From Roseateles sp. (GTDB lineage Bacteria > Pseudomonadota > Gammaproteobacteria > Burkholderiales > Burkholderiaceae_C), in assembly GCA_016790285.1 (NCBI GenBank), contig JAEUPJ010000073.1, positions 1 to 50,288 of the forward strand: a stretch of DNA of 50,288 bases. Reading direction: 5' to 3'. The position numbers were made by a program, and so were the translations under genes. The notes below the pieces were generated by a model that saw nothing but the letters and a program-made list of their open reading frames with translations, searched no databases and was not told where the DNA came from. Position 1 is the stretch's first letter. Each line of letters begins with the position of its first letter. This document shows, piece after piece, positions 1-17,741 of this stretch.

Positions 1-1
1 G

Positions 2-31
2 CGGCGCAACAAGGGCGACGAAGCGGCCTGA
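2..31 (+). CDS. 3' end of an upstream gene, possibly istB
   Basis: Ten codons of an open frame end in TGA (RRNKGDEAA). Because IS21-like terminal repeats follow about 60 bp downstream, this may be the tail of an IS21-family istB ATPase gene. It is too short to identify on its own, and it could equally be the end of a transposition gene of the surrounding island. Confidence 0.25.
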   Translation, partial: RRNKGDEAA

Positions 32-90
32 GGAAGCTCACCACTACAGTTGTCCACAGCCGGCATCACGCGATGCTGGCCCCAAGCCCT

Positions 91-141
91 GGGTCAGAGT
101 TCAATCGGCAGGGTGGGTCAAATTTAGATCGGCGCCAACAC
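91..141. repeat. Tandem imperfect repeat resembling an IS21-family end
   Basis: Two imperfect direct repeats, 24 bp apart, have the form GGGTCARARTT followed by ATCGGC: 91-109 and 115-133. They are followed by GCGCCAACA. Repeated GGTCA...ATCGGCG blocks of this kind are typical of the ends of IS21-family insertion sequences, which carry several transposase-binding repeats. The element body would lie left of the window. Recognition is by eye from the general pattern only. Confidence 0.35.
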
Positions 142-407
142 GCCAACCTTGTTCAGAAGGGCCAAACTGCTACCGTGACGAGCTTGCTGCAGGCCACTGG
201 GTACTGGCAGACCTTCAGGCACCAGCGCAAGCTCCTCCCGTTGACGGACGCCCAGGTCGCTGCCTTCAGGAGAACCGATTCTTCTGAACGGAAGGCAGGT
301 GGGCGGCAGGCTCACGCGAAGCGCTTAAAGGCTATCTCGGAGGGGCGTCAGAAGCCGTTTAAGCCATGGAGCCCTCGTGGGCGACGGGCAAGGACGCACG
401 AAGCGTC
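142..407. other. No confident gene
   Basis: A plus-strand frame is open from 73 to 411, but it starts before the IS21-like repeats and runs through them, has a low-complexity basic C-terminus and no convincing ribosome binding site. I see no RNA gene or recognisable site here. It may be the remnant of a gene cut by the insertion sequence. Confidence 0.4.
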
Positions 408-953
408 CTAGGTTCCGCCCTTGCCGAAGGCGGTGTTGACCTGCCGCTCCTTCGGCACCAGCTGCAAGACCTGGGGTAAGGACTTGGTTGCCCACCACCC
501 CATGACCTCTGGCGATTGCCGCGCCGAGCTATGGCCGTTGAACAGGGCGGTGGCAAAGCGCTTTACGAACCAGGCCTCATCACGCTCTGCCGTCTTGGCT
601 GAGGTGCCCATCTGCTCTATGTCGCCGGCGTTGAAGTGCGCGTTCGATTTGACTCGCCAACTGGCGCCCGGGCGCTTGGATAGCTCAACGCTCACTGCGC
701 CGGCGTTCATGACCCACGCGGCCAACCCAAGAAGATGGCCGTCCATAGCCTCGACAGTACAGTCACCGACGGTCAGCACGCCTCGGCAGCCGCCGTCCAT
801 GGCGAATGGACCTTTCGGACGCTTGCGCGCGCTGACCGCCTTGACGACCAGAACGCCGGTGGGCCTGCGTACTCTGCGTGCAGGCCCTTCTGTCACCTTC
901 TGCGAGGCCGCGGCAGCCGCGACCGCTGCGAGCTCAAACTTACTCGACTTCAA
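408..953 (-). CDS. Hypothetical island protein, 181 aa, TTG start
   Basis: I do not recognise this family. The frame reads as a normal globular protein with an Ala-rich start, a basic segment around residues 25-45 and a mixed alpha/beta-like remainder rich in Trp and Gly. The start is a TTG at 953 chosen because a strong Shine-Dalgarno sequence (GAGGGAG) lies about five bases upstream. There is no signal peptide or membrane segment. It lies between an IS21-like end and the TnsE-like gene, on the opposite strand to the latter, so it is probably transposon cargo. The plus-strand frames across the same stretch look less protein-like. Confidence 0.5.
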   Translation of the reverse strand: MKSSKFELAAVAAAAASQKVTEGPARRVRRPTGVLVVKAVSARKRPKGPFAMDGGCRGVLTVGDCTVEAMDGHLLGLAAWVMNAGAVSVELSKRPGASWRVKSNAHFNAGDIEQMGTSAKTAERDEAWFVKRFATALFNGHSSARQSPEVMGWWATKSLPQVLQLVPKERQVNTAFGKGGT

Positions 954-1200: not shown

Positions 1201-2256
1201 ATGGAACTCGTGGTATCAATGGAGAGCACTGGTGGCAGCGCATTCGCGAAGGCGACAACCAAAGGCAAGCAAGCCGTTTTAATCGCCGCCGCAGATTTGT
1301 CTACCCGCGGACTGCCCAGCACTGATAGCACTTCGCGGCACGCGCGCCAAGTGACCACGGACCTCAGAACGTGGCGTTCAGTGGATTTCAGCGATTACGC
1401 GCGTGGTGTCGGGTTCGAGGTAGCAGCCGGAACCCAGCACACGGCATGGGAGTTCTTCTCCGGACAAACCCGCTTCGTCGTACCGGCCCTTGCGCTTCTG
1501 CGGGCCATGGTTCGACCAAACCGTTCGCTCTTCCCCAAACTCTTCAAGCCTCAGTCGCTCGACGACATCTGCAGCTTTGACTCATGCAGCGCTCTCGGGG
1601 GCGTCTCCATGATAGCTACGGGGCTAGGCGATAGCAGAGTCAAGCATCAGCCGCAGATGGTCCTGCCCATCTCTTGGTTCTACTGCTTTCCTTCAGCACG
1701 CCAAGCTTGGGCGAGTGTCTACCGTGGCGCGACTGACGGACTCCTCGATTTTCAACTTCCGAAAGCAATCGTCTCTTTTAGGGTTCGTAGCCGCCGCGAG
1801 AAATGGGTCAGCTATGTCACTTCTATGACCACCATCAGCATCGAAGCAGTCGAGGAACCGTTCCCCTTCGCATCGAATTGCCCTCGCCACATTCTGGCCT
1901 CAGCGAGGTCGCGCATACCAAGAGGTAAGAATAAATCTGCGCCAGCAGTCCGCCCTGTGGACACAGGATTCGAGCCTCTTACTGACGATGAGTGGTTGGC
2001 AATCGAACCCATCCTGCGTCGAAGCAAGGGCGCGATACCGACCGGTACTCGAGACCTGTTTGACGCCCTTGCTTGGAAGTTGAGCGAAGACCGTAGCTGG
2101 AAGGAGGTCGCAGAGAGGCTCGGCTGCGGTCAGAGCTGGGCCGCGACCACGCTGTCCCGATGGAAGGCGGACGGTCGTTGGTCAGAGGTAGAGCATCGCC
2201 TGAAGGTGATGCGAGAGCGCCCTCCTGCCACGCAAGCCGACAGTTACACGCGCTGA
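1201..2256 (+). CDS. TnsE-like transposition protein with IS5-type helix-turn-helix C-terminus
   Basis: In Tn7, TnsE directs insertion to replication forks and conjugating plasmids by binding the sliding clamp. Here residues 85-127 (FFSGQTRFVVPALALLRAM onward) align by eye with the TnsE segment around TRYHIPQLELARSLF, and residues 187-220 with its strand-rich WKLHVKGRSS region. Residues 257-340 are different: LTDDEWLAIEPIL followed by DALAWKL and a helix-turn-helix resembles the N-terminal DNA-binding domain of IS5-type transposases (DUF4096). At 351 aa it is shorter than Tn7 TnsE (about 540 aa). The ATG at 1201 has GGGAAG four bases upstream; a GTG at residue 51 is the alternative. As the last gene of a tns operon it would fit a Tn7 layout, but the gene to its left points the other way. 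Confidence 0.5.
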   Translation: MELVVSMESTGGSAFAKATTKGKQAVLIAAADLSTRGLPSTDSTSRHARQVTTDLRTWRSVDFSDYARGVGFEVAAGTQHTAWEFFSGQTRFVVPALALLRAMVRPNRSLFPKLFKPQSLDDICSFDSCSALGGVSMIATGLGDSRVKHQPQMVLPISWFYCFPSARQAWASVYRGATDGLLDFQLPKAIVSFRVRSRREKWVSYVTSMTTISIEAVEEPFPFASNCPRHILASARSRIPRGKNKSAPAVRPVDTGFEPLTDDEWLAIEPILRRSKGAIPTGTRDLFDALAWKLSEDRSWKEVAERLGCGQSWAATTLSRWKADGRWSEVEHRLKVMRERPPATQADSYTR

Positions 2257-2405: not shown

Positions 2406-3365
2406 CTACGTCTGCGCCTGCTTGATGAAGAGCTCCCACAGGAACTCAGCTGCGCCCTCTTGCGACAGGTGCTTGTTGTGACCTCCTCCCCAAGACATCC
2501 CCATGGACTTGAAATGGAGGGACTGCTCGCCGGCCTCAGGGGTCAGCATCTCGTTGTATGAGCCCGGGCTTGCCGAAGAGTCGTACGAGAGGGCGATTCC
2601 GCCTGCGCGCCCCAGGGAGTCGAGCCGAACCGAGCATTCGGCAATCTTCTTGCCCCCTCGATAGAGGATGGCAGCCATCCGGCGCGAGTCGATGCGGTCG
2701 AAAGTTCCGCTGACGCCCGGGTTGCGCTCGCCGATGGCGTCAATCGAACCCTCGAAGAATCGACACACGTAGTCGAAGGATGACCGAACAAAGTCATCGA
2801 CGTCCTTCTCGGTGAACTCTTGCTTAAGGCGCAGGTTGCTGGACCGCGGTAGAGCAGCAGTCGCGCTCGCCTTGGCCGACGCGCCGGGCGCAGCGGATGG
2901 GGACCGCTTGGCTCTCGCCGAGGCGGCTCCCATCGCCTCAACAGCCTGGCGGACTTGCCTCGCCACATCCGCCAGGGCCTCGTCGCGGTCGGGCCACGAC
3001 ATCACCGGCCTACCGTCCCGGGGAGCGGCCAGGAGCTTTCCGAAGGGGGCTCGCGTCCAGTCGCAATGCCGGAGGATGACCGGGATGACGCGCGCCTGCC
3101 CTGCGTTGTGCCGCTCCATCGCCCGCGTCATCTCTCTTGAGTAGCAGTACGGCGAGTTGATGAAGTCCGAGCTCACCAGCAGCAGGACGACGTCGGCAGC
3201 TTCCAGCTGGCCGAAGATGGCGTCGTCGAACTGGTCACCGGCCACGATGCGTCGGTCGTGCCACGTGTCCACCAACCCCTCATGCTTGAGCAGCGCAAGG
3301 TGCGCCTCGAGCTCGTTGCGAAGCACCTCGTCCTTGTGGCTGTAGGAGAAGAAGATTGTTGCCAT
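2406..3365 (-). CDS. TIR-domain protein with uncharacterised C-terminal domain
   Basis: Residues 1-140 form a bacterial TIR_2 domain. It opens with IFFSYSHKDE and contains LLLVSSDFINSPYCYSREM; Glu78 in SREM sits where the catalytic NADase glutamate lies in TIR enzymes. A low-complexity Ala/Ser linker (147-175) joins it to a domain of about 140 residues (FTEKDVDDFVRSSFDYV to the end) that I have seen only as an unnamed partner domain. Bacterial TIR proteins usually act as cytotoxic NAD-degrading effectors in anti-phage systems; the C-terminal domain would be the sensor or regulator. No partner gene shares its direction; the next genes diverge from it. The frame extends upstream, but ATG 3365 begins exactly at the conserved TIR strand. 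Confidence 0.8.
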   Translation of the reverse strand: MATIFFSYSHKDEVLRNELEAHLALLKHEGLVDTWHDRRIVAGDQFDDAIFGQLEAADVVLLLVSSDFINSPYCYSREMTRAMERHNAGQARVIPVILRHCDWTRAPFGKLLAAPRDGRPVMSWPDRDEALADVARQVRQAVEAMGAASARAKRSPSAAPGASAKASATAALPRSSNLRLKQEFTEKDVDDFVRSSFDYVCRFFEGSIDAIGERNPGVSGTFDRIDSRRMAAILYRGGKKIAECSVRLDSLGRAGGIALSYDSSASPGSYNEMLTPEAGEQSLHFKSMGMSWGGGHNKHLSQEGAAEFLWELFIKQAQT

Positions 3366-3695
3366 CGCCGTGTCACTTTGGCGGATTATCGAAGACGCGA
3401 TACGGCTCCAAGGGCCGGACGACGCGGCGACCTCACCGGCTCGCTGACCGTCCAGGCGAAGGTGCCGAGCGGCGCGTGTTGCTCGGTCAGTCGGACGGCC
3501 ACGATGGCTTTTGCTCCTTTCAGGTCTTCGGCGCCCGCCCCGCCACCTGAACCTCACTAGCCCACACGGTCGCACCGGCCGCTCCCTGACGAAGGCTGTC
3601 CTGCTGAGCGTTGCCAGCGAAGTTGCTCGTCGCGTCCCCTTGCACTTCCCGCCGGACTGGAGTAATCTTCACTCACTCACATGAATGAGTGACGG
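3366..3695. other. Divergent intergenic region of the island
   Basis: This 330-bp stretch separates the TIR gene from the divergent STAS-like gene and must hold both promoters. Apart from the inverted repeat at 3673-3692 I see no clear sigma-70 boxes, RNA gene or short coding region. Confidence 0.4.
3673..3692. promoter_or_regulatory. Inverted repeat just before the STAS-like gene
   Basis: A perfect 7-bp inverted repeat, TCACTCA and TGAGTGA, with a 6-bp spacer ends three bases before the ATG of the STAS-like/winged-helix gene. It could be an operator for that protein or a hairpin covering its ribosome binding site. The position is suggestive; there is no direct evidence of function. Confidence 0.4.
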
Positions 3696-4274
3696 ATGAG
3701 TCTCTACCCTACCCTAGCTGTTCGGCACGCATGCGGCACCTCAGCGTTGCTCGGAATCGCCGCAGGACGAGCCGCGCTGCCTCAGCTGGCAGAAGCCGCG
3801 AACAAGCTTCCGGCCTCCCCTTGGGCCTTGCTCGACTTCAGCGGGGTCGAAATGGTCACTGCCAGCGCTGCCCGCGAGGCCGTGTTGAAGCTCGTGGAGC
3901 ACCTGGCAGACCGCAGGACCCTCGCTGTGCTTGTAAACCTGAACCCTGAGACCTGTGACGAGATTGAGTTTGCGGCTCAAGCCAGTCGCCAGCTCGTCGT
4001 GGTCGCAGAAGCAATGGAGCCTGACGGCCCTCAGGGCTTGCGGCTCCTTGGTCCTGTCGATGAGAAAGTCAAGGAAACGCTGGAACTCGTGTCCAGGTTG
4101 GGCGAAACGGATGCGAAGGGCGCAAACGACGCCTACACCGGTAACTCCATGGGAGCAACCGCTTGGAATAACCGGTTCGCTGCGCTCTCACAGGCGAGAC
4201 TGCTGACGGAGCGAAAAGTCGGAAAAACGAAGTACTACTCACTCGCGCTGAAAGGGCTGGTCGATGGGAACTGA
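3696..4274 (+). CDS. STAS-like protein with winged-helix C-terminus
   Basis: Residues 35-110 look like a STAS-type fold: WALLDFSGVEMVTASAAREA resembles the strand-helix start of the STAS-like DUF4325 family, where the loop after the first strand carries the switch serine. Residues 145-192 (GATAWNNRFAALSQARLLTER, then KTKYYSL) read as a small winged helix, so the protein may bind DNA. STAS domains commonly partner GHKL ATPases of the anti-sigma-factor type, and such an ATPase is encoded 1.5 kb away (5819-6634). The gene overlaps the next by 11 bases, so the two are translationally coupled. A role as phospho-switch regulator is inferred. Confidence 0.6.
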   Translation: MSLYPTLAVRHACGTSALLGIAAGRAALPQLAEAANKLPASPWALLDFSGVEMVTASAAREAVLKLVEHLADRRTLAVLVNLNPETCDEIEFAAQASRQLVVVAEAMEPDGPQGLRLLGPVDEKVKETLELVSRLGETDAKGANDAYTGNSMGATAWNNRFAALSQARLLTERKVGKTKYYSLALKGLVDGN

Positions 4275-4611
4275 CTTTCTCCGGAACAAGAAGGAGCGCT
4301 TTACCAAGGCGTGGCGCCACGGCGTAGTACGAACCGAGTCCGACTGGCTCCCCAGCGGGCAGCGAGTCACCCGCGTCTATCGCGCCAAGAGCGACGGGCC
4401 GTGTTCGCTTGCGGCTAATCAGCCGGTTCTGCTGCGCCTTGTGGCGGACAACCAAGTTGTGGCCACGGCAGGCATCGTCCAAGTTGCGACGCTGGTGAAG
4501 CCGTCCACGGCACTGCTCGAGCTACTTCGCACCCGACAGGGCGTCGGAACGGCAGTCGTGCAGCGCGTGTCGCCAACGACGAGCCGAGTGGACCTGCAAG
4601 TCGAGGAGTAG
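4264..4611 (+). CDS. Small hypothetical protein, 115 aa
   Basis: I do not recognise this protein. It has a basic N-terminus, then a strand-rich middle (QPVLLRLVADNQVVATAGIVQ) and an acidic end, with no membrane segment or cysteine cluster. Its ATG overlaps the end of the STAS-like gene, and its stop is two bases before the GTG of the next gene. Its last codons (GAGGAG) form the Shine-Dalgarno sequence for that gene, so the three are surely one operon. It probably works in a complex with its neighbours. Confidence 0.55.
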   Translation: MGTDFLRNKKERFTKAWRHGVVRTESDWLPSGQRVTRVYRAKSDGPCSLAANQPVLLRLVADNQVVATAGIVQVATLVKPSTALLELLRTRQGVGTAVVQRVSPTTSRVDLQVEE

Positions 4612-4613
4612 TT

Positions 4614-5822
4614 GTGCTGCCAGCGAGCGACAACGACCAACTGTGGGCCCTCAAGGACTTGAGCAACGGTCAGCCAATGCTTGGCTGCGGTAGCTGCCTT
4701 GACCGAAAGACTTGCGGCGGGCTGCAGGTGACCCCCGGCGGAGCAAAGGCCCTCGACTGCATGGCCACCTGCCGGTGCGACGACCCCGAGAAATGTGACG
4801 TCGTCTGCCCTGCCGCTCCAAAGCGCTACATGCGACGGCTCACCGAAGTTGGTGGATTTGACCTCTCGGTCATTCCGGTTGCCAAGGCGCACCGCATCCC
4901 AAAACTCCCGGACTACGCGGTGCTAGTCGAGGGCAATGCCGTAAAGGACGGTGTCTCTAGGGCCCTCCAACACGTCGCAGTGCCACTATCGATGGCCATC
5001 GCCGAGGCTGGGCAACTGACTCGCGCAAAGACACGCAAGGAACTCGAGCTCACTTTCGGCCTCGCGCCGAGAGACGGCTGGATACTGACCGGGGTAGAGC
5101 GCGACAGCTATGTTGAACGCATGTGGCGCCTTCACTCGCCGCGCAAGGTCTACGAAGGACTTCGGAAGGCGGGCGCCATCTTCGCGACCACTCCCAACTT
5201 CAGCACCATCGCCGACGTACCGCGCCATGACAATCTTCACGCGATGATGCGCATCGCGCTGACATGGCACGACATGGTGGATGCGGGCCTCCCTACGGCA
5301 CTCCATCTCAATGGCCGCACAGACTTCGACTTCGTGCGCTGGGGCCAGTTTGCACGACGGCAGCACCACCTACGGGCTGTGGCGTTCGAGTTCCTAACTG
5401 GTGCGGCCAACAACGAGGATGGTCAGCGATATGTAGAGCGACTGAAGCTGTTTGTGAAAGAGAGCGGTCGAGGCGACCTTCTCTTGGTGCTACGTGGAGG
5501 TCAACGCTGGCTGACGGAACTGCAGCCGCACTTCGGGCAAATTTTCGTCATCGACTCAGGAGCGTATTTCAAGACTGTCAATCGGCAGCGCACTGAACTC
5601 AGCATCGATGGCCGGCTCGTCTATCGGACTCACAAGACGCGCTTGCCGGCCGACGTCAGGGCGCTCTTTCATCACAACGTTAAGGCACGGCTTGCTGTGT
5701 ACGCCCGAGCATCTAGCCCGGGCAGCCAACAACAAGGGGGACTATTCCAGGCCCCTCCGAAGAAGGTGGTCGAACGTCCATCGTCAAGGGCCTCCGATGA
5801 CCAGCTTCTACTGGATTTCTAG
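4614..5822 (+). CDS. Cysteine-cluster protein of unknown function (possible TIM-barrel, DUF4417-like)
   Basis: The first 70 residues hold eight cysteines: C25-x2-C28-x5-C34 and C49-x3-C53-x-C55-x5-C61-x3-C65, which suggests two metal or iron-sulfur sites. The rest (about residues 80-340) alternates short hydrophobic strands and helices in a TIM-barrel-like rhythm, with PNFSTIADVPRHDNLHAM near residue 195 and LHLNGRTDFDFVRWGQF near 230. These recall DUF4417-type proteins, but I am not sure of the family. The C-terminus is a polar tail. The GTG start has GAGGAG five bases upstream. It ends in a 4-bp convergent overlap with the GHKL gene. An enzymatic role on nucleotide or nucleic acid is possible but unproven. 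Confidence 0.55.
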   Translation: MLPASDNDQLWALKDLSNGQPMLGCGSCLDRKTCGGLQVTPGGAKALDCMATCRCDDPEKCDVVCPAAPKRYMRRLTEVGGFDLSVIPVAKAHRIPKLPDYAVLVEGNAVKDGVSRALQHVAVPLSMAIAEAGQLTRAKTRKELELTFGLAPRDGWILTGVERDSYVERMWRLHSPRKVYEGLRKAGAIFATTPNFSTIADVPRHDNLHAMMRIALTWHDMVDAGLPTALHLNGRTDFDFVRWGQFARRQHHLRAVAFEFLTGAANNEDGQRYVERLKLFVKESGRGDLLLVLRGGQRWLTELQPHFGQIFVIDSGAYFKTVNRQRTELSIDGRLVYRTHKTRLPADVRALFHHNVKARLAVYARASSPGSQQQGGLFQAPPKKVVERPSSRASDDQLLLDF

Positions 5823-6634
5823 GCGAGGCGGGTTGGCTTCCAGCCAACGAACATACTGACAACAAAGCCTCTCAATTTATCCTGGTCGCGTACTACCCAG
5901 TTCACACCAAGCGCAGGCCTCTCCGTCTCGATACTTGCGTCATCGCTACGCACCCGTAGCGAAGCATCCAAAGTGAGCATGGCTCGCATGACAGTCGAAA
6001 AACCTGTTCCGCGACCAGGTTCACTCAGCCGTGACCGGTGGTCAACCACGGCCCACTTCAACGCAGTAGCTGTCTCCAAGGCCTCCAAGCCCTGGCCAGT
6101 CGACGTGTAGCCGCGAACTACTCCTTGGCCGTTGTCGGCCACCGCTATCCATACGGCGTTGGTATAGAACTCGTAAACCGCAATGCCTCGCGCCCCGTCG
6201 CCCGCGTGCTCGTTGACGTTACCGATGAGCTCGGCAAATGCCCCCTTCCATAGTCTTGCAGCCGCTCCTGGCATTCCGGCATCAGTCGCCAGCCGGCCGG
6301 CGCGCATCGCAAACTCATGAGCCGCTAGGTCTGCCACTTCGCCACCACCGTAGATGTTTAGCGCGCCAACACGTTCACCGTGCCAGACGGGCGGTTGACC
6401 CGGGGTGGCAACGTGCCGAACCGCCGCACATCTCTTATCGCCCTCGGTATCCAGTCTGAAAGGCTTTCCTTGCGATTGCCACTGCCGACGCAAAACAAGG
6501 AGCTCTGCAAGAGGACCCAGCTCAAGCTCGCTAGCGCGCAGGACGATTGAATCTGTCGCGTCTAGCGCATCTGTGAAGTCTTCAAGCGCTCTGTAGCAGC
6601 CTAGAGTGCTGCCCGCTAACCCACCCGCAGACAT
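5819..6634 (-). CDS. GHKL ATP-binding protein with STAS-like N-terminus
   Basis: Residues 130-260 carry a histidine-kinase-like ATPase fold: N box FAELIGNVNEHA (133-144), G1 box VADNGQGV (165-172) and G2 box GRGTGFSTV (207-215). There is no dimerisation/phosphoacceptor domain, so it resembles anti-sigma-factor kinases rather than sensor kinases. Residues 5-60 (GCYRALEDFTDALD, then SIVLRASELELGPLAELLVL) look like a STAS-like half. ATG 6634 is chosen because AAGGA lies five bases upstream; the ATG four codons earlier lacks one. It converges on, and slightly overlaps, the operon with the other STAS-like protein, so a partner switch between them is plausible. Confidence 0.65.
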   Translation of the reverse strand: MSAGGLAGSTLGCYRALEDFTDALDATDSIVLRASELELGPLAELLVLRRQWQSQGKPFRLDTEGDKRCAAVRHVATPGQPPVWHGERVGALNIYGGGEVADLAAHEFAMRAGRLATDAGMPGAAARLWKGAFAELIGNVNEHAGDGARGIAVYEFYTNAVWIAVADNGQGVVRGYTSTGQGLEALETATALKWAVVDHRSRLSEPGRGTGFSTVMRAMLTLDASLRVRSDDASIETERPALGVNWVVRDQDKLRGFVVSMFVGWKPTRLA

Positions 6635-7210
6635 GACTTCCTTCATCTCAGCCAGCCTGTGGCAACTCGACTATTGACGGCACCGGCTAGCGTAGGACGA
6701 GGAAGCTAACGATGAACTCACTTGGAGTCAACCGACAGCGGCAACACTAGCCCACTCCACCTTCATTGGCTCCCACGTCGACACGGGCCTCCACAACATT
6801 GATGAGCCCCTGCGCACAAACAGCTCTGTCATCGGCCACCAAAGTCACACACCATCCTCAGCGTGATAGCTGCGAATTTGCTCCATGGGCGGAGTCTTAG
6901 AAGGCTGAGGTAAGCCCGCCTCGGACTTCTGGGACTCCGGGCGCTGCCGGACGTGCAGCGATAGCATCCCTGAAGCTTGTTCACATGATTGGCGTTCACG
7001 GCTTCCCGTAAGGGCTGAGCACGACAGGTTGCGGCCAAGCAGTTCAGTTTCTAGTCGGGGTTTATGAGACATTGCTGGGGTCTTCAGGCCGACCACAAGC
7101 ACGAGGAAGCTCTTAACGAACCGCCCATATAGACTGGCCCACAACCTCGGCGGAGCGCTCGCTGTGGCACGGTGCGGCTTAGCGAGTCCGGGCCAACCTT
7201 GGGCAGTCCA
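6635..7210. other. Long non-coding stretch in the island
   Basis: This stretch separates the GHKL gene from the membrane-protein gene. Minus-strand frames are open across it, but their products are low in hydrophobic core and rich in Ser, Pro and Arg, unlike real proteins. I found no tRNA, terminator or clear repeat. The promoters of both flanking genes must be here. Confidence 0.4.
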
Positions 7211-8419
7211 ATGGCAGAACCCACCAAGAAGCCGCGAATTCGCGTTGCAGAAGCGGTCGAATCCGGCGTAGAGGGACTTCTGGTTTTTCTGGTTCGATAC
7301 TTCAGGACCGGATGGCTCGTTGTGACTCGGCCTCGTCACGGTTGGCGTCGAATTCTGGCCGACCGACACACGCCAAAGCCCGCATTTGTCCTGCCTCTGA
7401 CCTACCTGTCCATTGGCCTGTTCCTGCTATCGCTGATGGGGCAAGTAGCCGGCTTGTCCGTACTGGACTGGATTTGGTTCGTCGACGACCTGGCCAACAA
7501 GGTGACCGACGCCCTGAGCAAAGAGGTGTCGCTGGTAAAGGTGGCAGTACAAGCGCTTCCTGGCGTAGCCGTGGTGGCTGCGATAGCACTGTTGCTACAG
7601 GTCGCACTTCGCCGGCTCAGCATGTCGCGGCGTCTCGTTTCGTTCGCACTGAGCTACGCCATTGGCGCGCAAGCCTTCGCAATCTTCGCCGTCGCGTTTG
7701 CGTTTGTGGTCACAGCTACCATGGTAGGAGGCTGGGTGCCCCCAGGTGGGGCTTTTGGCGCCAACCTGATGGCCATTGGCGTCTATGGAGCCATCTTCGG
7801 AGGCTTGGCACTGGCATTCTTCGGACCGCTCGCCTTCATGCTCTCCGTCTTGAGGCTGAGGCGAATCTGGCGCGTCAGCCGGTCAACTGCTTTGGCGGTT
7901 GCCGCCATCGTCACGGCCACGGTTTTCGGCGGCCATGTCGCCGTGCTTTGGGCTACGACGATTCCAACAGTTGTGATGGCTCGGACTGCTGCCCCCACAA
8001 AGCCGGACCTCACCGTTGGTGACGGTACGTCGGCTCTCCAGCGTCAAGCAGTGACCGTAGCGTTCCCGCTCTTGCTTGCAAACCGCGGAACGAAGCAGCA
8101 AGGCTGGGAGACATCCCGGATAGAGATGCGCCTGTCCGATGGAGCCGGACGCAGTTCCGACGACAGGTGCACCGGCGACAGCATCAAGCTGGAGATTGAG
8201 CGAGTTCTGGACGCGAGCGGCAACGAGGTCAGATACGTCTCAGTTGCTCCAAAGGAAACCACTTGGGTTCTGGTCCGAGCGCGTGCTGAGCTTGCCCAGA
8301 GCCGTCTCCAAGTCCTGAACACGAAGCGGGACTGGGATGTGCTGGCGCAAATGACCTCGACTGACCAGGATGTGGTCAAGGTGTGCTCGGTGAGGACGGT
8401 GACTCCGCTGGCGCGCTGA
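7211..8419 (+). CDS. Polytopic membrane protein of unknown function
   Basis: Residues 40-270 contain about five hydrophobic segments: LPLTYLSIGLFLLSLMG, ALPGVAVVAAIALLLQVAL, a long one around SYAIGAQAFAIFAVAFAFVV, IGVYGAIFGGLALAFFGPLAF and AVAAIVTATVFGGHVAVLW. The layout recalls YIP1-type membrane domains. The last 130 residues are soluble, probably extracytoplasmic, with two cysteines that could pair. ATG 7211 is preferred over a GTG 39 bases upstream because it starts with a typical charged cytoplasmic tail. It is the cargo gene nearest the transposon end, with its stop about 60 bases before the innermost end repeat. No function can be assigned; membrane effectors are common in defence cargo. 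Confidence 0.6.
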   Translation: MAEPTKKPRIRVAEAVESGVEGLLVFLVRYFRTGWLVVTRPRHGWRRILADRHTPKPAFVLPLTYLSIGLFLLSLMGQVAGLSVLDWIWFVDDLANKVTDALSKEVSLVKVAVQALPGVAVVAAIALLLQVALRRLSMSRRLVSFALSYAIGAQAFAIFAVAFAFVVTATMVGGWVPPGGAFGANLMAIGVYGAIFGGLALAFFGPLAFMLSVLRLRRIWRVSRSTALAVAAIVTATVFGGHVAVLWATTIPTVVMARTAAPTKPDLTVGDGTSALQRQAVTVAFPLLLANRGTKQQGWETSRIEMRLSDGAGRSSDDRCTGDSIKLEIERVLDASGNEVRYVSVAPKETTWVLVRARAELAQSRLQVLNTKRDWDVLAQMTSTDQDVVKVCSVRTVTPLAR

Positions 8420-8478: not shown

Positions 8479-8611
8479 AGCACCAGAGTAGAAGCTGATT
8501 GTCATTGCGGGCGACAACGCTCCCAACATCAGCGTAGAACCCTTTGTCTGTTGTCGCTATCGGACTACGTATCGCCATAGGCAGCGTGAGCGTAGAACTT
8601 TAATGTTCACA
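8479..8611 (-). repeat. Transposon end with three TnsB-type binding repeats
   Basis: Read inward from 8611 on the minus strand, the end starts TGTGAACATTAA. Three direct repeats share GACA, a short variable gap, then TTCTACGCT: 8583-8608 (outermost, GAACA variant), 8525-8548 and 8479-8503 (TTCTACTCT variant). Their cores are spaced 58 and 46 bp apart. A degenerate fourth core (GTTCTAGG) may lie at 8465-8472. Three separated TnsB sites are the hallmark of the Tn7 left end, and GACAA is also part of the Tn7 site. An inverted pair GCGACAA/TTGTCGC (8511-8517 and about 8551-8557) lies between the outer two sites. Confidence 0.65.
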
Positions 8612-8616
8612 CTCAG
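8612..8616. repeat. Candidate 5-bp target-site duplication (CTCAG)
   Basis: The five bases next to the ACA terminus on the chromosome side read CTCAG and still belong to the comEC frame (second half of the ISE codons). Tn7-like elements duplicate 5 bp of target. The second copy would be beside the other transposon end, outside the window, so this is a prediction. Confidence 0.4.
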
Positions 8617-9364
8617 AGATCGCGTTCTGGTCACCCAGGCTCAGCGCCGCCAGCACGCCGGCCAGGCTGGGGTCGGCGACTTCGGCACGGATGGCCGCGC
8701 GCAGCCGCTGGCGCGCCGCGTCCAGTGCCCACCATGGCGCGGGCGCCAGCCGCTCGGCCGAGCGCACCACGCCGCTGGCGCGCAGGCCCTGCTCGAAAAG
8801 CCACAGTTCGGCATCGAACCCGCCCGGGTTGGCCAGGCCATGGGCGCGCTTCAGGCGGGCCGTAAAGCGCCAGACCTCACCCGCGGTGATGGGCGGGGCG
8901 TCGTAGGCCAGCATCATCAGCCGTCGCGGCACCTCGGGCGGCAGCGCGGTGCCGGTCGGGCCGACGGCCTCCACGGCGAATTCGAAACGCCAACCCGGCA
9001 CCCCGCCCTGCCCCGTGACGGCCACGGGCAGGCTGTCCACACGGCCCGTGAGCACGAGGTCCCGGCCTTCCCAGGCCGGATGCAGCGCCGACCCGAGCCG
9101 CTCCTGCGCACGCCACGCACCTTGCAGGAAGGCCAGCGTGGCGACGGCCACGGCAAGCCAGGCCCAGTGGCCGCGTCGCATGGCCCGCATCGACACCAGC
9201 GACAGCACCAGCGACTGCACCACCGACAGCACCAGCAGCGCGCCCAGCACGAGCTGCTCGCCCCCGGTGGGCAGCCGCTCGCAGCGGTGCAGCAGCGCGA
9301 GCCCGGCCAGCCAGGCCAGGCCGGCCGTCAGCAGCTCCACAGGCCCCCAGCGCCCTTGCGCCAC
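8612..9364 (-). pseudogene. comEC: comEC, N-terminal fragment cut by the transposon
   Basis: ComEC/Rec2 is the inner-membrane channel for single-stranded DNA in natural transformation. The fragment shows the N-terminal membrane segments (LLTAGLAWLAGLALLHR and later ones), the DUF4131-type soluble domain with VLTGRVDSLPV and the conserved LAALSLGDQNAISE, at which the family normally continues into the competence domain with its SISGLH motif. Here the frame leaves comEC after the GAG codon at 8612 and stops at 8600 within the transposon (three codons, then TAA). About two thirds of the protein is missing. GTG 9364 is the likely start because GAGGAG precedes it; the frame is open to an ATG at 9406. 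The host is predicted to be non-transformable unless the element leaves. Confidence 0.85.
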
Positions 9365-9444
9365 CCCGTCTCCTCGGCCTTCGCCTGTTGGGTCGGGGTG
9401 TAGCATGCCGGCGTTTCCTGAACGCGCCCTAGCGCTCCCCCTGC

Positions 9445-10411: not shown

Positions 10412-12193
10412 CTACTCGCCGCGCACCACGCCTTCGCGCCGCGGGTCGGCCCCGCCGAGCCATCCGCCCGGCACACGCAGCAGCACCTGCAGGCCGCTGG
10501 TGAGGTCCGTCTCCACGATCTGGTGGCCGCGCCCGCGCAAGTCGCTCAGCTGCTCGGCGGTCAGCCCGCCGCGCTCGACGATGAGGGAGCCGCTGTTGAA
10601 GTGGCCGAAATTGGGCAGGTCCACCGCCTGCTGCACAGGCAGCCCCCAGGCCAGCGCACCGGTGAGCACCTTGGCCACGTAATGGATGATGACCGGACCG
10701 CCCGGTGAGCCGGCGGCCATCAGCAGCTTGCCCTCGCGGTCGAACACCAGCGTGGGGGCCATGCTGGAGCGCGGGCGCTTGCCGGCGTCCACGCGGTTGG
10801 CCACCGGCTTGCCATCGGCGCCCACGGGGTTGAGCGAGAAATCGGTGAGCTGGTTGTTCAGCAGGAAGCCGCCCGCCAGGCCCGTGCCGCCGTCGCTCAT
10901 GACGCGGTTGCCGAAGGCAGACTCGATGCTTGTCGTCATGGCCACCGCGTGCCCTTGGGGGTCCACCACGCTGATGTGGCTCGTGCCTGACTCGAGCTGC
11001 TCGGCCTGGGGCGCCAGCGCCTGCTGCACGGGTGCGGGGTTGCCGGCTGTGGCGATGCCACCGGCCTTGGGGCCGATCAAGGCGCCGCGCTGCTTGAGGT
11101 AGGCGCTGGACAGCAGGTTCTGCCAGTCGCCGCCCGGGGCCGTCACGAAGGCCGGGTCGCCGATGTACTGTGCGCGGTCGGCGAAGGCGAGCTTGGCGGA
11201 CTCGGCATAGGCGTGCATCCAGTCGGCCGTGATGCCACTGGCCGCGCGCGCGGCGGGCTGGGTGTCCAGCAGCCCGAGGATCTGCATCAGCGTCAGGTGC
11301 CCCGAGGTGGGCGGGCCGAAGCCGCACACGCGGTAGCCGCGCCAGTCGTTGCACAGCGGCGGCCGCACGGCCGGGCGGTAGGCGGCCAGGTCGTCGGTGG
11401 TCAGCAGGCCCGGCCGCGCGTGCCCCTTCACGCGGCGCACCAGGTCCTCGGCCACCGCCCCCTCGTAGAAGGCCTTCACGCCCTCCTTGGCGACGGCGCG
11501 CAGCACGGCGGCGTAGGCGGGATTTTTCAGCAGGGTGCCCACAGGCTTGGGTGCGCCAGCGGCGTCGAAGAAGTAGGCGGCGGCGACCGGGTCGGTGCGC
11601 AGTGCCGTTTCGCCGGACAGCAACTCGTGCAGGCGCGGGCTGACGGCAAAGCCTTGCTCAGCCAGCCGGATGGCGGGCTCGAACAGGCGCGCCCAGGGCA
11701 GCTTGCCGTGGCGGCGGTGCCCCTCCGCGAGCATGGCCAGCACGCCGGGCGCTCCGGTGGACAGGCCGCTCTGGATGGCCTCCCGCATGGGCAGCGGCTT
11801 GCCGTCGGGCTTGAGGAAGAGCCCCGGCGTCGCCGCGGCTGGCGCGGTTTCGCGGCCGTCCAGGGCCTGCACTTCACGCCCGTCCCAGTGCAGCAGGAAG
11901 GCGCCGCCCGCGATGCCGCTGGATTGCGGCTCCACCAGGCCAAGCACCGCCTGCACCGCCACCGCGGCGTCCAGCGCGGAGCCGCCGGATTTCAGGATCT
12001 CGACCCCGGCGTCCACGGCCAGGGGATTGGCCGCCGTCACGGCAAACCGCCTGGCCGGTGCCTGGAGGCTGCCTTCCTTGGCGGTGCGGGTGGTCGCAGC
12101 CTCCGGCTGATCCAGCGCGTGGACGGGGGCGAGAAACACGGCCAGCGAAGCGGCCAGGAAAGCGGGGAAGGCGGGACGGCGCATGGAGCGCAT
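10412..12193 (-). CDS. ggt: Gamma-glutamyltransferase
   Basis: This periplasmic enzyme cleaves glutathione and other gamma-glutamyl compounds, transferring the glutamyl group to water or amino acids. The 593-residue precursor starts with a signal peptide (FLAASLAVFLAPVHA) and contains the large-subunit start ARRFAVTAANPLAVDAG. The self-cleavage site is at the threonine of GTSHISVVD, which begins the small subunit and is the nucleophile; most homologues have TTH, so the second residue is a conservative Ser. GNRVMSDGGTGLAGGFLLNN and the AAGSPGGP loop follow as expected. It is convergent with dsbB and divergent from a PEP-CTERM gene. Confidence 0.93.
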   Translation of the reverse strand: MRSMRRPAFPAFLAASLAVFLAPVHALDQPEAATTRTAKEGSLQAPARRFAVTAANPLAVDAGVEILKSGGSALDAAVAVQAVLGLVEPQSSGIAGGAFLLHWDGREVQALDGRETAPAAATPGLFLKPDGKPLPMREAIQSGLSTGAPGVLAMLAEGHRRHGKLPWARLFEPAIRLAEQGFAVSPRLHELLSGETALRTDPVAAAYFFDAAGAPKPVGTLLKNPAYAAVLRAVAKEGVKAFYEGAVAEDLVRRVKGHARPGLLTTDDLAAYRPAVRPPLCNDWRGYRVCGFGPPTSGHLTLMQILGLLDTQPAARAASGITADWMHAYAESAKLAFADRAQYIGDPAFVTAPGGDWQNLLSSAYLKQRGALIGPKAGGIATAGNPAPVQQALAPQAEQLESGTSHISVVDPQGHAVAMTTSIESAFGNRVMSDGGTGLAGGFLLNNQLTDFSLNPVGADGKPVANRVDAGKRPRSSMAPTLVFDREGKLLMAAGSPGGPVIIHYVAKVLTGALAWGLPVQQAVDLPNFGHFNSGSLIVERGGLTAEQLSDLRGRGHQIVETDLTSGLQVLLRVPGGWLGGADPRREGVVRGE

Positions 12194-12301
12194 CTTAGGC
12201 AGAGGCGAATCAGGGAAGTCTTGACACTGTTTCCGGTGACGTGCGCAAGCTTGGCGACAGACATACTCGTGACTTCAATCACGGAACTGCGAGGGATTCC
12301 C

Positions 12302-13045
12302 ATGAGTGTTCTGCGTACCGCCATCCAGGCAACGTTCTTCGGTGCGGCCCTGATGGCCGTGGCCCCGGCGTTCGCCGCCGGCAAGACCGAAGATCCGGCA
12401 CGCCTGATCCCCGGCGGCAGCCTGGCTGCCACCCCGTCCGCGGCGCTCGGCCCGGGAAGCTACCTGATCGATTTCGAGAACCTGTCGGTCGGCGACACCC
12501 TGGACAGCCAGTACGCGGCCTGGGGCGTGACCTTCTCGGCCTCGCCCTACACCGGCGCCGACAGCCCGACCGGCGGCTGGGCCACCAACACCGACATGAC
12601 CATCGTCGCCGTTGGCGGCGGTGACACCGGCGGCCTGGGCTCGCCCTCGCTGGTCAGCGGCAATATCCTGCGCTCGTTCGACGGTTGGCTGGGCGAAGAC
12701 GGCGACGCCAGCATCCTGATGACGTTCAGCTCGCCGATCACCGCGGTCAGCGTCGACTTTGCCGGCATCGCCTTGCCCAGCAGCACCGGCATCGACATCT
12801 ACTCCACCTCGGGCAACTACGTCACCAGCGTGTTCGCCACGGGCACCGGCCAGCAGACGCTGAGCTACACCGGCACGAACATCGGTTTCGTCGTGGTCAC
12901 GCCGGGCGACTACAACGACTGGGTCGGTGTCGACAACATCGGCTTCACCGTGGCTGCCGCCGTGCCGGAACCCGAGACCTACGGCATGCTGGCCCTGGGC
13001 CTGGGCGTGCTGGCCGTCGTGGCCCGCCGCCGTCGCCAGCACTGA
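12302..13045 (+). CDS. PEP-CTERM sorted secreted protein
   Basis: A signal peptide (ATFFGAALMAVAPAFA) is followed by a beta-rich domain starting SYLIDFENLSVGDTLDSQY, which resembles the jelly-roll type found in many exopolysaccharide-associated PEP-CTERM proteins. The C-terminus has the full sorting tag: VPEPETYGMLALGLGVLAVV and then an arginine-rich tail. Such proteins are cleaved at the PEP motif by an exosortase, which is not in this window, and exported to the surface or biofilm matrix. ATG 12302 is chosen because it starts the signal peptide. A terminator follows directly. Confidence 0.85.
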   Translation: MSVLRTAIQATFFGAALMAVAPAFAAGKTEDPARLIPGGSLAATPSAALGPGSYLIDFENLSVGDTLDSQYAAWGVTFSASPYTGADSPTGGWATNTDMTIVAVGGGDTGGLGSPSLVSGNILRSFDGWLGEDGDASILMTFSSPITAVSVDFAGIALPSSTGIDIYSTSGNYVTSVFATGTGQQTLSYTGTNIGFVVVTPGDYNDWVGVDNIGFTVAAAVPEPETYGMLALGLGVLAVVARRRRQH

Positions 13046-13063
13046 GCAGCGCAACCTCTCTTG

Positions 13064-13091
13064 AACAGCCCGGCCCCGCCGGGCTGTTTTT
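13064..13091 (+). terminator. Rho-independent terminator after the PEP-CTERM gene
   Basis: A 10-bp perfect stem (AACAGCCCGG with CCGGGCTGTT) and a 5-base loop are followed by a run of T, 18 bases after the stop codon. It also lies just before the convergent DUF1501 gene end. Confidence 0.9.
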
Positions 13092-13102
13092 GCTTTCGGG
13101 GC

Positions 13103-14479
13103 TCAGAAGTAGCCCATGTCGCGCTGCGTGTAGTTGACGATCTGCGGCAGCACCGACGGCAGGTCGGTCGCGCTGATGCCCATCCAGGTGGCCAGCGTGG
13201 CGCCCAGCTGGTCGACGCCCGTCGTGGGCAGCAGCCGGCCCTGGCCGACGTCGTCGGGCCCGTTCACGCTGACCGAGGGCAGCGTGCCCCAGAAGCGCCC
13301 ACCCTGCACCGCGCCGCCCAGCACGACGTGGTGACTGCCCCAGCCGTGGTCGGAGCCGTCGCCATTGCTCGTGAGCGAGCGGCCGAAGTCGCTCGCCGTG
13401 AAGGTGGTGACCTGGTTGGCCACGCCAAGTTCAACGGTGGCGGCGTAGAAGCTCGCCAGCGCGTCGTTCACGGCCGTGAGCAGGCCCGGGTGCTCGTCGA
13501 GCAGGAAGTCGTGGGTGTCGAAGCCGCCGAGGGACACGAAGAAGACCTGGCGCGTGGCGCCCAGCGTCTGCCGCGCCGCGATCAGCCGCGCCACCATCAA
13601 CAGCTGGGCCGAGAGCGGGCTCGTCGTGTCGAAGGCTGTCTGCAGCGCGGGCACGCCGGCCAGCCCGGCAGTGACCGTACCCTGGGCGGTGATGGAGCGG
13701 TTCACGACCCGGTTGAGCTCGGCCTCCATCCAGTGCGTCCGCTCCGCCGTGATGAGCCCGCGCAGCGCGTCGGCACAGGCCTGGGAACCGTACAACGGCT
13801 TGAGCACCCCGTTGATCGGCACCGCGCCACTGGTGGACACCTGGTACTGCACCGCCTGCTTGCCGGCCATGTAGACGGCATTGCCCGAGGCGTTGATGCA
13901 GGTGAAGGTGGCCGAGCCGTTGCCCGACAGGAACAGGTCGCCCATGCGCCCGCCCCAGCCCGACGTGGCACCCTCGGGCGAGCTGCTCTGCCAGACGGAC
14001 TGCTGGTCGTTGTGCGAGAAGAGCTTGGGCGGCAGCGGCACGCTCTGCGCCTTGTACTGGGCCAGGGTCGTGGGCTGGATGAGGGTGCCCACGTTGAGCT
14101 GCACGCCCAGGCGGCCGGCGTCCCACAGCGCCTTGAGCTTGCCGAGTTGGGGCGCCAGCGCCATCTGCCGGCCGCCGACGTTCTGGCTGAGCACGGTGGC
14201 GGCCAATTGCTCGCGGGGCGTGGCCAGCGTCTGGCGGATGCCGGCGTAGGCGTTGTAGCTGGCGGTGTCGTAAGGCACCAGCGTGTTGCCGTGGTCGTTG
14301 CCGCCGTACAGGAAGACGCACACCAGGGCCTTGTAGTCGCCCGGCGCCGTGGCGGCCGCGGCTTCGCCGAGGGCCGCGAGGTTGAGCGCCCAGGGTGCTG
14401 CCGTGCCGGCCAGACCCAGCGCGGACGCGCGACGCAGGAACTCGCGGCGCTGCAGTTCGGGGAGGCGGTTGAGTTTCAT
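13103..14479 (-). CDS. DUF1501 domain protein, Tat-exported
   Basis: The 458-residue protein begins with a twin-arginine signal (RREFLRRASALGLAGTAAP). The DUF1501 body, of the alkaline-phosphatase-like/sulfatase superfamily, includes VCVFLYGGNDHGNTLVPYD near residue 55, FVSLGGFDTHD near 310 and FTASDFGRSLTSNGDGSDHG near 355. These are the expected metal-site segments. Its substrate is unknown. ATG 14479 is preferred over 14485 because GGGG then lies at a proper distance. It is the second gene of a two-gene operon with the DUF1800 protein, the usual pairing. Confidence 0.88.
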   Translation of the reverse strand: MKLNRLPELQRREFLRRASALGLAGTAAPWALNLAALGEAAAATAPGDYKALVCVFLYGGNDHGNTLVPYDTASYNAYAGIRQTLATPREQLAATVLSQNVGGRQMALAPQLGKLKALWDAGRLGVQLNVGTLIQPTTLAQYKAQSVPLPPKLFSHNDQQSVWQSSSPEGATSGWGGRMGDLFLSGNGSATFTCINASGNAVYMAGKQAVQYQVSTSGAVPINGVLKPLYGSQACADALRGLITAERTHWMEAELNRVVNRSITAQGTVTAGLAGVPALQTAFDTTSPLSAQLLMVARLIAARQTLGATRQVFFVSLGGFDTHDFLLDEHPGLLTAVNDALASFYAATVELGVANQVTTFTASDFGRSLTSNGDGSDHGWGSHHVVLGGAVQGGRFWGTLPSVSVNGPDDVGQGRLLPTTGVDQLGATLATWMGISATDLPSVLPQIVNYTQRDMGYF

Positions 14480-14490
14480 CGTCATCCCCT

Positions 14491-16233
14491 TCACTTCTGG
14501 ATCTGGTATTCGGGGCAGGCCATCAACATCAGGATGGCGGCCTGCACGCGGCTGAGCTTGCCGGCATCGGTGCCGCCAGCGATGGTGGCCACCGCGGTGG
14601 CGATGGTCGCTTGCGTGGCGGCCGAGATGGATCCGCCGCCCAGGCGCAGCGCGAGGCTGGCCACGAGCGTGGGCGCATCGCCCGCCAGCGTCAGCTCGGT
14701 GGTGTAGCTCGGCTTGACGTCGCCCACGCCGTCGGAGATGGCCTTTTGCAGGTAGTTCAGGTAGGCGGCGACCGTGCTCTCGTTGCAGAGCTGGAACTCC
14801 GGGGCCGTGACGCCGTTGCTGCCCAGCTGCGAGTTGGGTGGCACATAGCCCGGGCGGAAGAAGTTGAACACCGAGGGGCTGCGCAGCGGGCTCTGGCCGA
14901 GCCGCGTGCCGGGGTCGCTGGTGTTGCCGATGTTCCACAGCCCGTTGGGCGAGCCGGCACCGAAACTGCGCCCCCACTGAAGGAAGCGCTGCAGCGGCTC
15001 GCGCAGCTTGCCCGCCCCAGGGGCGGCGGACGCCGTGCGCGCCTCGGTGTCGAGCAGGATGGCGCGGATGACGGCCTTCAGGTCGCCGCGCACGCCCGCG
15101 CCGTTGTCGGCCCAGACGGCCGCGATACGCGCGACGTATGCCGCGCTCGGGTTGCTGGCCACCAGGTGCTGGATGAGCTGGCGCCCGATGAAGGGGCCGA
15201 CGTTGGGATGGGCCGCCAGGGTGTCCAGCGCGGTCTTGAGCGCGGTGGGGCCGTCGGCGGAGGCGGGGATGTCCACGTCCAGCACGCGTTTGGCGCCCGT
15301 GGAAAAGCGCGACGCGATGTGGGTCATGGGCTTCTTCATGAAGCCGGGGTCGGCGCCGCTGTAGCCGTCGAAGTCCCAGCCGGTGAAAACGCGGGCCAGC
15401 TCGGTGATGTTCGTCTGGGTGTAGGTCTCCAGCGGCTTGCCCTTGGCGTCGAGCTTGGGGCTGCCGTCGGCGTTGAGCTGGATGAGCCCGATGCTGAAGA
15501 GCTGCATCACCTCCCGCGCGTAGTTCTCGTCGGGCACGCGGCCGGTGGCGGCGTCTTCCTTCTGGTTGCCGCGCATGTTGAGGTACACGCCCATGGCGTT
15601 GGACAGCGTCACGGCGTTGAGCAGGTCGCGGTAGGTGCCGAAGGCGCGCTGCTCGAGCATGTCGACATAGGCCGCCACCGCGAAGCCCCGCCACGGCACG
15701 GGCAGGCCGGACATGGAGACGACGAAGATCTCGCTGAGCGCCAGCACGACGCGCTGGCGCAGCACGTCGGGGGCGGACATGAGCTTGCGCCAGAGCGTGT
15801 TGTCCACGCCGCCGAAGTCGTTGCGGTGGTCGACCACGGCGAAGCCATTGGCCACGAGCCAGTCGAAATGACCGTCGCTCACCGGCAGCGCGAACTGGGC
15901 GTCCAGCCAGGCGGCGTAACCGCCGGCCTTGACGGTGGCGATGTCGGCGACGGTTGCGGCGAAGCCGGCCTGGGCGAGGAAGCGGGCCGCCTCGGCGTCG
16001 GTGATGCCGGGCGGAGGGGGTGGCGGTGGTGGGGGCGGTGGAGGGGGCGGGGGCGAGGGTGTCGGCGCGCTGCCCTCCCCGCCTCCACCGCCGCAGGCGG
16101 CCAGCAGCGTGGCGGCAACGGCCGCGGCGGTCAGTCCGGCAGGGTGAACAACGGGATGATGATGGGGGGCGGCGGCCGCGGTCTCCTGCGCGGGCTCGAT
16201 CGTCTGGACCTCTGGCATCGGTGGCGGGTGCAT
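14491..16233 (-). CDS. DUF1800 domain protein with lipobox and polyproline linker
   Basis: This is the standard partner of the DUF1501 protein; the pair is widespread and of unknown function. After a short cytoplasmic N-terminus there is a hydrophobic stretch ending LLAACGGGG, probably a lipoprotein signal, followed by a run of 15 prolines. The DUF1800 domain then starts at ITDAEAARFLAQAGFAAT and includes PDENYAREVMQLFSIGL and a C-terminal AILMLMACPEYQIQ. ATG 16233 is preceded by GAGGAAG; the upstream in-frame ATG lacks a ribosome site and would delay the signal. The gene ends 11 bases before the DUF1501 start. Confidence 0.87.
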   Translation of the reverse strand: MHPPPMPEVQTIEPAQETAAAAPHHHPVVHPAGLTAAAVAATLLAACGGGGGEGSAPTPSPPPPPPPPPPPPPPPGITDAEAARFLAQAGFAATVADIATVKAGGYAAWLDAQFALPVSDGHFDWLVANGFAVVDHRNDFGGVDNTLWRKLMSAPDVLRQRVVLALSEIFVVSMSGLPVPWRGFAVAAYVDMLEQRAFGTYRDLLNAVTLSNAMGVYLNMRGNQKEDAATGRVPDENYAREVMQLFSIGLIQLNADGSPKLDAKGKPLETYTQTNITELARVFTGWDFDGYSGADPGFMKKPMTHIASRFSTGAKRVLDVDIPASADGPTALKTALDTLAAHPNVGPFIGRQLIQHLVASNPSAAYVARIAAVWADNGAGVRGDLKAVIRAILLDTEARTASAAPGAGKLREPLQRFLQWGRSFGAGSPNGLWNIGNTSDPGTRLGQSPLRSPSVFNFFRPGYVPPNSQLGSNGVTAPEFQLCNESTVAAYLNYLQKAISDGVGDVKPSYTTELTLAGDAPTLVASLALRLGGGSISAATQATIATAVATIAGGTDAGKLSRVQAAILMLMACPEYQIQK

Positions 16234-16271
16234 GTCTTCCTCGCTTCTGGGGTGAGAGTCGGCGCCCAACG

Positions 16272-16296
16272 AAAAAGGGCCGGCTTGCGCCGACCC
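16272..16296 (-). terminator. Rho-independent terminator of scoAB
   Basis: On the minus strand GGGTCGGC, a GCAA tetraloop and GCCGGCCC form an 8-bp stem (one G-T pair) followed by five T. It lies 40 bases after scoB and ahead of the DUF1800 promoter region. Confidence 0.85.
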
Positions 16297-16336
16297 GTAT
16301 TCGCCCACGATCTGGGGGTGCGGTCGAGGATTTACC

Positions 16337-16975: not shown

Positions 16976-16977
16976 GG

Positions 16978-17685: not shown

Positions 17686-17741
17686 GCCGTCTCCTGCTGG
17701 AAAGAGGGGCGAAGCGTAGCGCCCCCCTGCCCCGCAGTCGA

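Follow-up and report, generated by a model that had tools for sequence, protein, structure and literature searches.

The window, i.e., the complete analyzed stretch of 50,288 nucleotides of a Roseateles sp. genome (contig C54 of the assembly), begins within a transposon-like element that carries a remnant of tniQ, a tnsE-like gene and several cargo genes and that terminates inside comEC (Table 1).

Table 1. Features of the element and of the interrupted comEC gene (positions in the window unless a contig is named).
Feature	Position	Strand	Evidence
End of an IS21-like element (istB end) inside tniQ, at the contig start	1..150	+	match to plasmid istB ends
C-terminal piece of the clade tniQ/tnsD	100..408	+	clade TniQ profile
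TnsE-related protein, 351 aa: TnsE N-terminal half and IS5-type helix-turn-helix (DUF4096)	1201..2256	+	Pfam, NCBIfam, hhalign
Cargo: ThsB-type TIR protein (Thoeris)	2406..3575	-	PADLOC ThsB, E 3e-147; Pfam TIR_2
Cargo: three ORFs, no assigned function (3696-4274, 4264-4611, 4614-5822)	3696..5822	+	ORF list
Cargo: possible ATPase/kinase-like protein	5819..6646	-	weak NCBIfam match to a histidine kinase (E 4e-4), well under the cut-off
Cargo: ORF adjoining the element end, no assigned function	7172..8419	+	ORF list
Transposon end: TGAGTGTGA terminus, then three TnsB-site-like repeat copies (ACATTAAAGTTCTACGC)	8483..8615	-	repeat matching
Target-site duplication TCTC	8616..8619; again C82:7628-7631		flank comparison
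5' part of comEC, cut after GDQNAI	8616..9406	-	Pfam DUF4131, E 3.5e-25; junction reading

The comEC sequence of the window represents the first third of the gene, while the remaining two thirds are located on contig C82 of the same genome. Beyond the GDQNAI codons and two further bases, the window sequence turns into transposon (TGAGTGTGAACATTAAAGTTCTACG), and the truncated frame reads out into the element, ending with SECEH*. Since the frame is cut at GDQNAI plus two bases, the last S is partly, and the subsequent E, C, E and H are wholly, transposon-encoded; the clean cut at a precise codon described in the earlier note is thus confirmed with a correction by one codon, E already belonging to the transposon. 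On C82, comEC resumes immediately after AGGGCCTTAATGTAAAAACTCA with a 561-aa ORF from C82:7628 onward that comprises the Competence and metallo-beta-lactamase domains, so that the remainder of the gene was indeed found beside the other transposon end, where the earlier note had advised looking for it. When both flanks are joined and the duplication is counted once, the comEC frame reads GDQNAISVADWAVFRDTGVAHLLSVSGLH uninterrupted. A fifth base, the A beside TCTC, also agrees in both flanks and could be the element's own.

Both ends of the element open with TGAGT....ACATTA, 16 of the first 22 bases being identical between them, and each contains multiple copies of a ACATTAAGGTTCTACGCTGG-like repeat. 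At the window end these copies start near 8606, 8548 and 8502; those at 8606 and 8502 reach 14/20 repeat matches and the one at 8548 reaches 13, while throughout the whole window only two positions score 14/20, both within the element end. A fixed repeat pattern, by which degenerate copies are missed, yielded a single copy at the C82 end in the host genome. Similar repeats are present at the junctions of relatives, and these end repeats would presumably be bound by TnsB.

Because the comEC halves reside on separate contigs, their linkage is deduced from the common duplication, the matching ends and the complementary gene parts. The host assembly is a draft of 5.88 Mb in 107 contigs with 95% completeness, which lends some room to the idea that the window merely holds an old comEC fragment, or an artefact of assembly, while an intact copy exists elsewhere; this is nevertheless very improbable. 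The Competence family (PF03772) has a single match in the assembly, at C82:7624-8391, and this sole match is the fitting 3' part, adjoined by the fitting transposon end and by the 4-bp duplication also present in the window. Both an intact comEC elsewhere and a missing remainder were looked for and neither was found, no second comEC emerging from the 107 contigs of the 95% complete assembly. Moreover, in Derxia gummosa, Acidovorax Leaf160, Dechloromonas hortensis and the one-contig genome G630 a single contig bears both comEC halves together with the element, which argues against an assembly artefact. Comparison with related genomes, likewise proposed beforehand, revealed an uncut comEC, and thus an empty site, in 5/5 congeners sampled, and insertions at the same place in more distant relatives. 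Hence, the element interrupts comEC in the host genome.

Gene content of the element

At the contig start, tniQ is interrupted by an IS21-like element: window positions 1-170 share 86.8 and 87.9% identity with IS21-like istB ends of plasmids (two records covering >80% of the query). The first bases of the remaining tniQ piece overlap the IS match, so that the exact boundary is unsure. The ORF at 73-408 matches the clade TniQ profile with E 6e-21 (profile positions 324-397), and the tniQ piece is 47% identical over 93 aa to the TniQ of Acidovorax sp. Leaf160. Since tniQ is broken, this copy looks stranded and has probably lost the ability to move on its own. A TnsC of the clade was not found in the host assembly, and the window carries only the tniQ piece and the tnsE-like gene; the rest of the element would therefore either be situated in the gap between C54 and C82 or have been lost.

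Other Tn7-like genes of the host genome, on C68, C81 and C101, are unlikely to constitute the missing part, as their TnsC/TniQ proteins are distant from or unmatched by the clade profiles; no end-repeat clusters were seen in the stretches examined around them. On C68 (locus L010, 6133-11571), a separate Tn7-like operon encompasses tnsA and two tandem tniQ genes, assigned by Pfam, as well as tnsB and tnsC, recognized by eye, and upstream of it an S8-type protease and an AAA ATPase gene were recognized by eye from the translation. The locus on C101 (L012, 182-5413) comprises tnsB-tnsC-tniQ (tnsB by eye) and ends before a fructose-bisphosphate aldolase-like gene (by eye), and that on C81 (L011, 7674-9944) features tniQ and a tnsA-like gene at the contig end with an apparent IS (by eye). 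L011 and L012 might be two pieces of one element.

The TnsE-related protein combines two parts of different affiliation. A profile of 20 relatives aligned with TnsE proteins over 192 columns with an hhalign probability of 98.3% and E 2.4e-14, the TnsE reference consisting of four rows, three of which were scanned and one of which matched Pfam TnsE_C. This alignment stops before the C-terminal region of TnsE; no match to the TnsE C-terminal domain (PF18623) is listed for the protein, whose C-terminus matches DUF4096/IS5-type helix-turn-helix sequences instead. The Pfam score for DUF4096 lies just below the cut-off for the window copy and above it for the Hydrogenophaga flava protein.

Regarding the cargo, the Thoeris-type gene of the window is complemented on the C82 side by a CBASS operon (SAVED-HNH effector, cyclase and E2). 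For the three ORFs within 3696..5822 no Pfam family was obtained, and PADLOC gave no match for 3696-4271 or 4614-5819; the ORF at 3696-4271 has one weak NCBIfam match to a helix-turn-helix family (E 0.002). The ORF at 5819..6646 is without match in Pfam and PADLOC, and that at 7172..8419 without family in Pfam, PADLOC or NCBIfam.

A plasmid route for the clade found no support in PLSDB. There, the TnsE-like protein had no match, and TnsC matched 438 records, which were taken for other clades because the best 30 of the 438 are at most 35.4% identical.

Distribution of comEC insertions among relatives

Three surveys with different queries were conducted. When comEC itself was searched in 399 genomes of the family, 374 matched, and among the matches listed the frame is broken at the site in the host, in H. 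flava (G341) and in G390. In G028, G109, G339 and G043 the comEC frame continues past the site and is shortened by the contig end, and in G329 a stop occurs further on, beyond the site. The H. flava element is composed of tnsA-tnsB-tnsC-tniQ and a TnsE-like gene adjoining the 5' part of comEC, and its operon matches the Pfam families TnsA N and C, Mu-transpos_C, TniB/AAA, TniQ and TnsD, the latter below the cut-off.

In the second survey, a TnsE-like profile derived from the host copy and H. flava was used, independently of comEC, in 399 genomes of the order. It matched 14 genomes, 7 of which (host included) were taken as true relatives, whereas in the remaining genomes the match is confined to the short DUF4096 part. 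In five of the six further relatives comEC is reduced to a 3' part that starts at profile position 11-13; G742, the most divergent of the six, has an uncut comEC.

The third survey employed the TniQ alignment alone, again without comEC, in a large species-level genome set and retrieved 55 loci, 20 of which match over the full length (E <= 4e-42). Taking as cut a comEC match that starts at profile position 9-13 in a shortened frame, comEC is cut at the site in 17 of these 20 loci and uncut in 3. A point against homing is that the source elements of the A1 and A3 profiles were mostly or all already known to be in comEC. In this count, the status of L082 (G088) and L084 (G658) was adopted from the comEC check of the TnsE-profile survey, and G786 and G794, for which no 3' half was found, were counted as cut through the 5' half. 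As controls, 12 genomes were chosen from 31 loci that were placed outside the clade and carry other TniQ types, and none of the 12 shows the cut: in nine the frame reads straight through the site, in G806 and G810 the match extends from the family start in long frames, and G812, with a match from position 24 in a 669-aa frame, was assigned neither cut nor uncut. The proposal that comEC serves as a dedicated target is well borne out by this comparison of 17/20 with 0/12, one control being unsettled, and comEC appears to be a regular landing site for elements of the clade. Among partial loci, comEC is cut in L122 as well, decayed yet not cut at this site in L124, and uncut in L126.

Matches to tnsA, tnsB and tnsC occur in 18 of the 20 full-length clade loci, L081 having tnsC only (at a contig start) and L087 none. 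The latter locus, from an uncultured Dechloromonas MAG, features a cut comEC and an adjoining clade tniQ with no tnsABC match in the flanks examined, and is taken for a reduced or decayed element. In G630, a small comEC element (L064, 8329-10342) carries shortened tniQ and tnsE-like genes with a 179-aa ORF between them and is taken for a decaying copy. A 7.1-kb insert at the same comEC place in G390 (L029, G390:C22:118501-138500, at about 11800-18870) has TGGAGG ends and a CATC duplication; no tns gene was found among five ORFs scanned, and the insert comprises Wadjet JetD-like, SIR2-like (weak) and GGCT-like genes. It looks like a non-autonomous, defense-carrying relative.

On a TnsC tree of 54 rows, one clade of 22 rows with support 100/100 unites 18 members with cut and 4 with uncut comEC. 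The cut members derive from Comamonadaceae, Oxalobacteraceae, Alcaligenaceae, Azonexaceae, Sphaerotilaceae and unassigned MAGs, and thereby cover at least five betaproteobacterial families. The cut/uncut label takes three changes on this tree, so that some lineages of the clade may have gained or lost the target. comEC is uncut in the clade members L083, L090 and L091 and in the sister L092; searches for end repeats gave nothing usable as to their insertion places, and Pfam analysis of six ORFs flanking the L091 operon showed no target. The insertion sites of these four elements could reveal a second target.

Precision of insertion and recognition of comEC

With the first TG taken as the start of the element, the 14 upstream (5') comEC junctions are located 0, 0, 2, 4, 4, 4, 4, 5, 5, 5, 5, 5, 6 and 6 nt past the I codon of GDQxAI and thus span 7 bp (0 to +6 nt), the G390 insert, in which no tns gene was seen, being included. 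The 3' parts of comEC, that of D. hortensis among them, resume at or beside the same three codons, ahead of a conserved W. Furthermore, the direction of insertion is the same in 13/13 distinct elements for which it was readable: the tniQ/tnsE side faces the 5' part of comEC, which is antiparallel to the operon. Position and orientation are hence fixed within the clade, and it is presumably TniQ that sets them.

The same data bear on a retention bias without targeting, according to which insertion would be widespread and comEC cases would be enriched since non-transformable cells cannot cure their elements. In favor of this view, comEC is reported to be broken by other mobile elements as well, namely by a mefA cassette in pneumococcus (PMC4774983) and, in Piscirickettsia, by various transposable elements whose positions are non-identical (PMC12955456). 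If loss of function were what is selected, however, any break in the gene of about 2.5 kb would be acceptable, in either orientation, which conflicts with junctions confined to 7 bp and a single orientation; moreover, the cutting of comEC follows one TniQ/TnsC clade. Retention bias is therefore considered quite improbable as the cause of the pattern, and the window very probably represents, on the basis of its sequence and that of its relatives, one end of a Tn7-like transposon from a clade that homes into comEC.

Target-site duplications were determined from paired flanks. Exactly four bases agree, the fifth being excluded, in G390 (CATC), Duganella (CCCG), the Dechloromonas MAG G798 (AGGG) and G630 (GCAC), and at least four bases agree in the host copy, Curvibacter, an Oxalobacteraceae MAG and UWPOB. 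The Acidovorax duplication amounts to four bases (ACCG) with an unsure boundary, and the halves of H. flava share only three agreeing bases. Taken together, the duplication of the clade is read as 4 bp. In Derxia gummosa (L061/L071, G455), unlike in the other pairs, the comEC halves adjoin the element without any duplication.

Among 21 comEC genes uncut at the site, a set that includes one decayed copy (L156), the three codons hit are poorly conserved, with 1.4-2.1 of 6 bits per codon, while the most informative windows of 24 bases are situated just upstream, starting 33-35 bases before the site, and around 60 bases downstream of it (SGLH). Variable cut codons beside conserved blocks are compatible with a selector recognizing conserved DNA, the cut being placed beside it. 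Accordingly conceived, TniQ, alone or together with the TnsE-like/HTH protein, would recognize conserved comEC DNA either around the GDQxAI codons or around the SGLH codons, which follow after about 60 bp; TnsC would in turn direct TnsAB to the variable codons between GDQxAI and SGLH.

A variant of homing, in which the TnsE-like/HTH protein rather than TniQ reads comEC and acts through TniQ in the manner of TnsF for comM, is conceivable, though it is held to be unlikely. It draws on the presence of the TnsE-like gene downstream of tniQ in 18 of the 20 full-length clade loci (it was not found in L087 and L088), on the helix-turn-helix that replaces the TnsE C-terminal domain, and on the length of the full-length clade TniQs of 383-443 aa, which is approximately the size at which direct target binding is termed hard to predict by Faure et al. 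2023 (PMC10293859). The TnsE-like gene, however, also occurs in clade members with uncut comEC, and the Comamonas MAG locus L088 has tnsABC-tniQ in a genome with cut comEC, yet no TnsE-like gene was found within its 10-kb flanks; the gene may be situated farther away. Recognition by TniQ, with or without the assistance of the TnsE-like protein, is the preferred reading.

Relation to known transposons and consequences for transformation

In canonical Tn7, TnsD directs insertion into attTn7 downstream of glmS, the host gene is spared, and the target duplication comprises 5 bp. The comEC clade resembles Tn7 in combining tnsABC with TniQ/TnsD and a TnsE relative, in its TnsB-site-like end repeats, in the single orientation and in the short duplication. 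On the contrary, it disrupts its target gene, generates a 4-bp duplication with the fifth base excluded in four informative pairs, and encodes a TnsE relative devoid of the known TnsE C-terminal domain. The duplication length is kept as a difference, since the assignment as Tn7-like relies on gene content and ends.

Elements that target a competence gene have been described for comM, which is targeted by Tn6022 via TnsF and also by Tsy (Faure et al. 2023, PMC10293859), and inactivation of comM, often by AbaR, is reported to accompany reduced transformation in Acinetobacter (PMC11472951). The likeness to AbaR/Tn6022 put forward in the earlier note holds as an analogy of strategy: like Tn6022/AbaR (PMC10293859), the clade consists of cargo-bearing Tn7-like elements with TnsABC and TniQ that insert into a constant, conserved segment of a gene for natural transformation. 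Membership in these comM islands does not hold, because the target differs. In the host, neither dprA nor the best comM-like gene is interrupted, the best match to PF13541 (ChlI, found in ComM) residing in a 964-aa frame without internal stop, and comEC is cut instead. In the compact H. flava operon, no TnsF-sized gene lies between tniQ and comEC. A further difference from Tn6022 is that the TnsE relative of the clade is encoded downstream of tniQ and possesses a different C-terminal domain. With the Tsy tyrosine-recombinase transposons (PMC10293859), the clade shares the targeting of a transformation gene by a mobile element, whereas transposition chemistry and gene set differ.

Among the listed hits of searches in the open-license PMC literature, no report described a Tn7-like element inserted in comEC, and the main texts of PMC10293859 and PMC8649781 contain 0 mentions of comEC. 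The transposons encountered in this literature as having a competence gene for their dedicated target are Tn6022 and Tsy, both in comM. As no Tn7-like element aimed at comEC was encountered there, comEC is regarded as a new dedicated competence-gene target for a Tn7-like clade, which also has an altered TnsE.

ComEC forms the channel for bacterial DNA uptake. Insertion of the element would consequently remove this channel and abolish DNA import by transformation, and with the channel gone the host could no longer import homologous DNA able to replace the element. The earlier note had already envisaged that uptake of replacing DNA is disabled in this way. Such shielding from replacement by empty-site DNA may in turn help the defense-gene cargo to persist. 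The fuller picture, namely a betaproteobacterial Tn7-like family that homes into comEC, produces a 4-bp duplication, reads comEC with the help of a TnsE whose C-terminus has been swapped for a helix-turn-helix, and shuts the route of its own replacement with each homing event, is offered tentatively.

If true, comEC would join the attachment sites of Tn7-like elements, and the conflict over chromosomal curing, in which elements disable transformation against their replacement, would have found a repeated evolutionary solution through a Tn7-like clade whose target is the uptake channel itself. The chromosomal-curing idea would, moreover, become testable on one gene and one site, with empty sites in congeners and with defense cargo.
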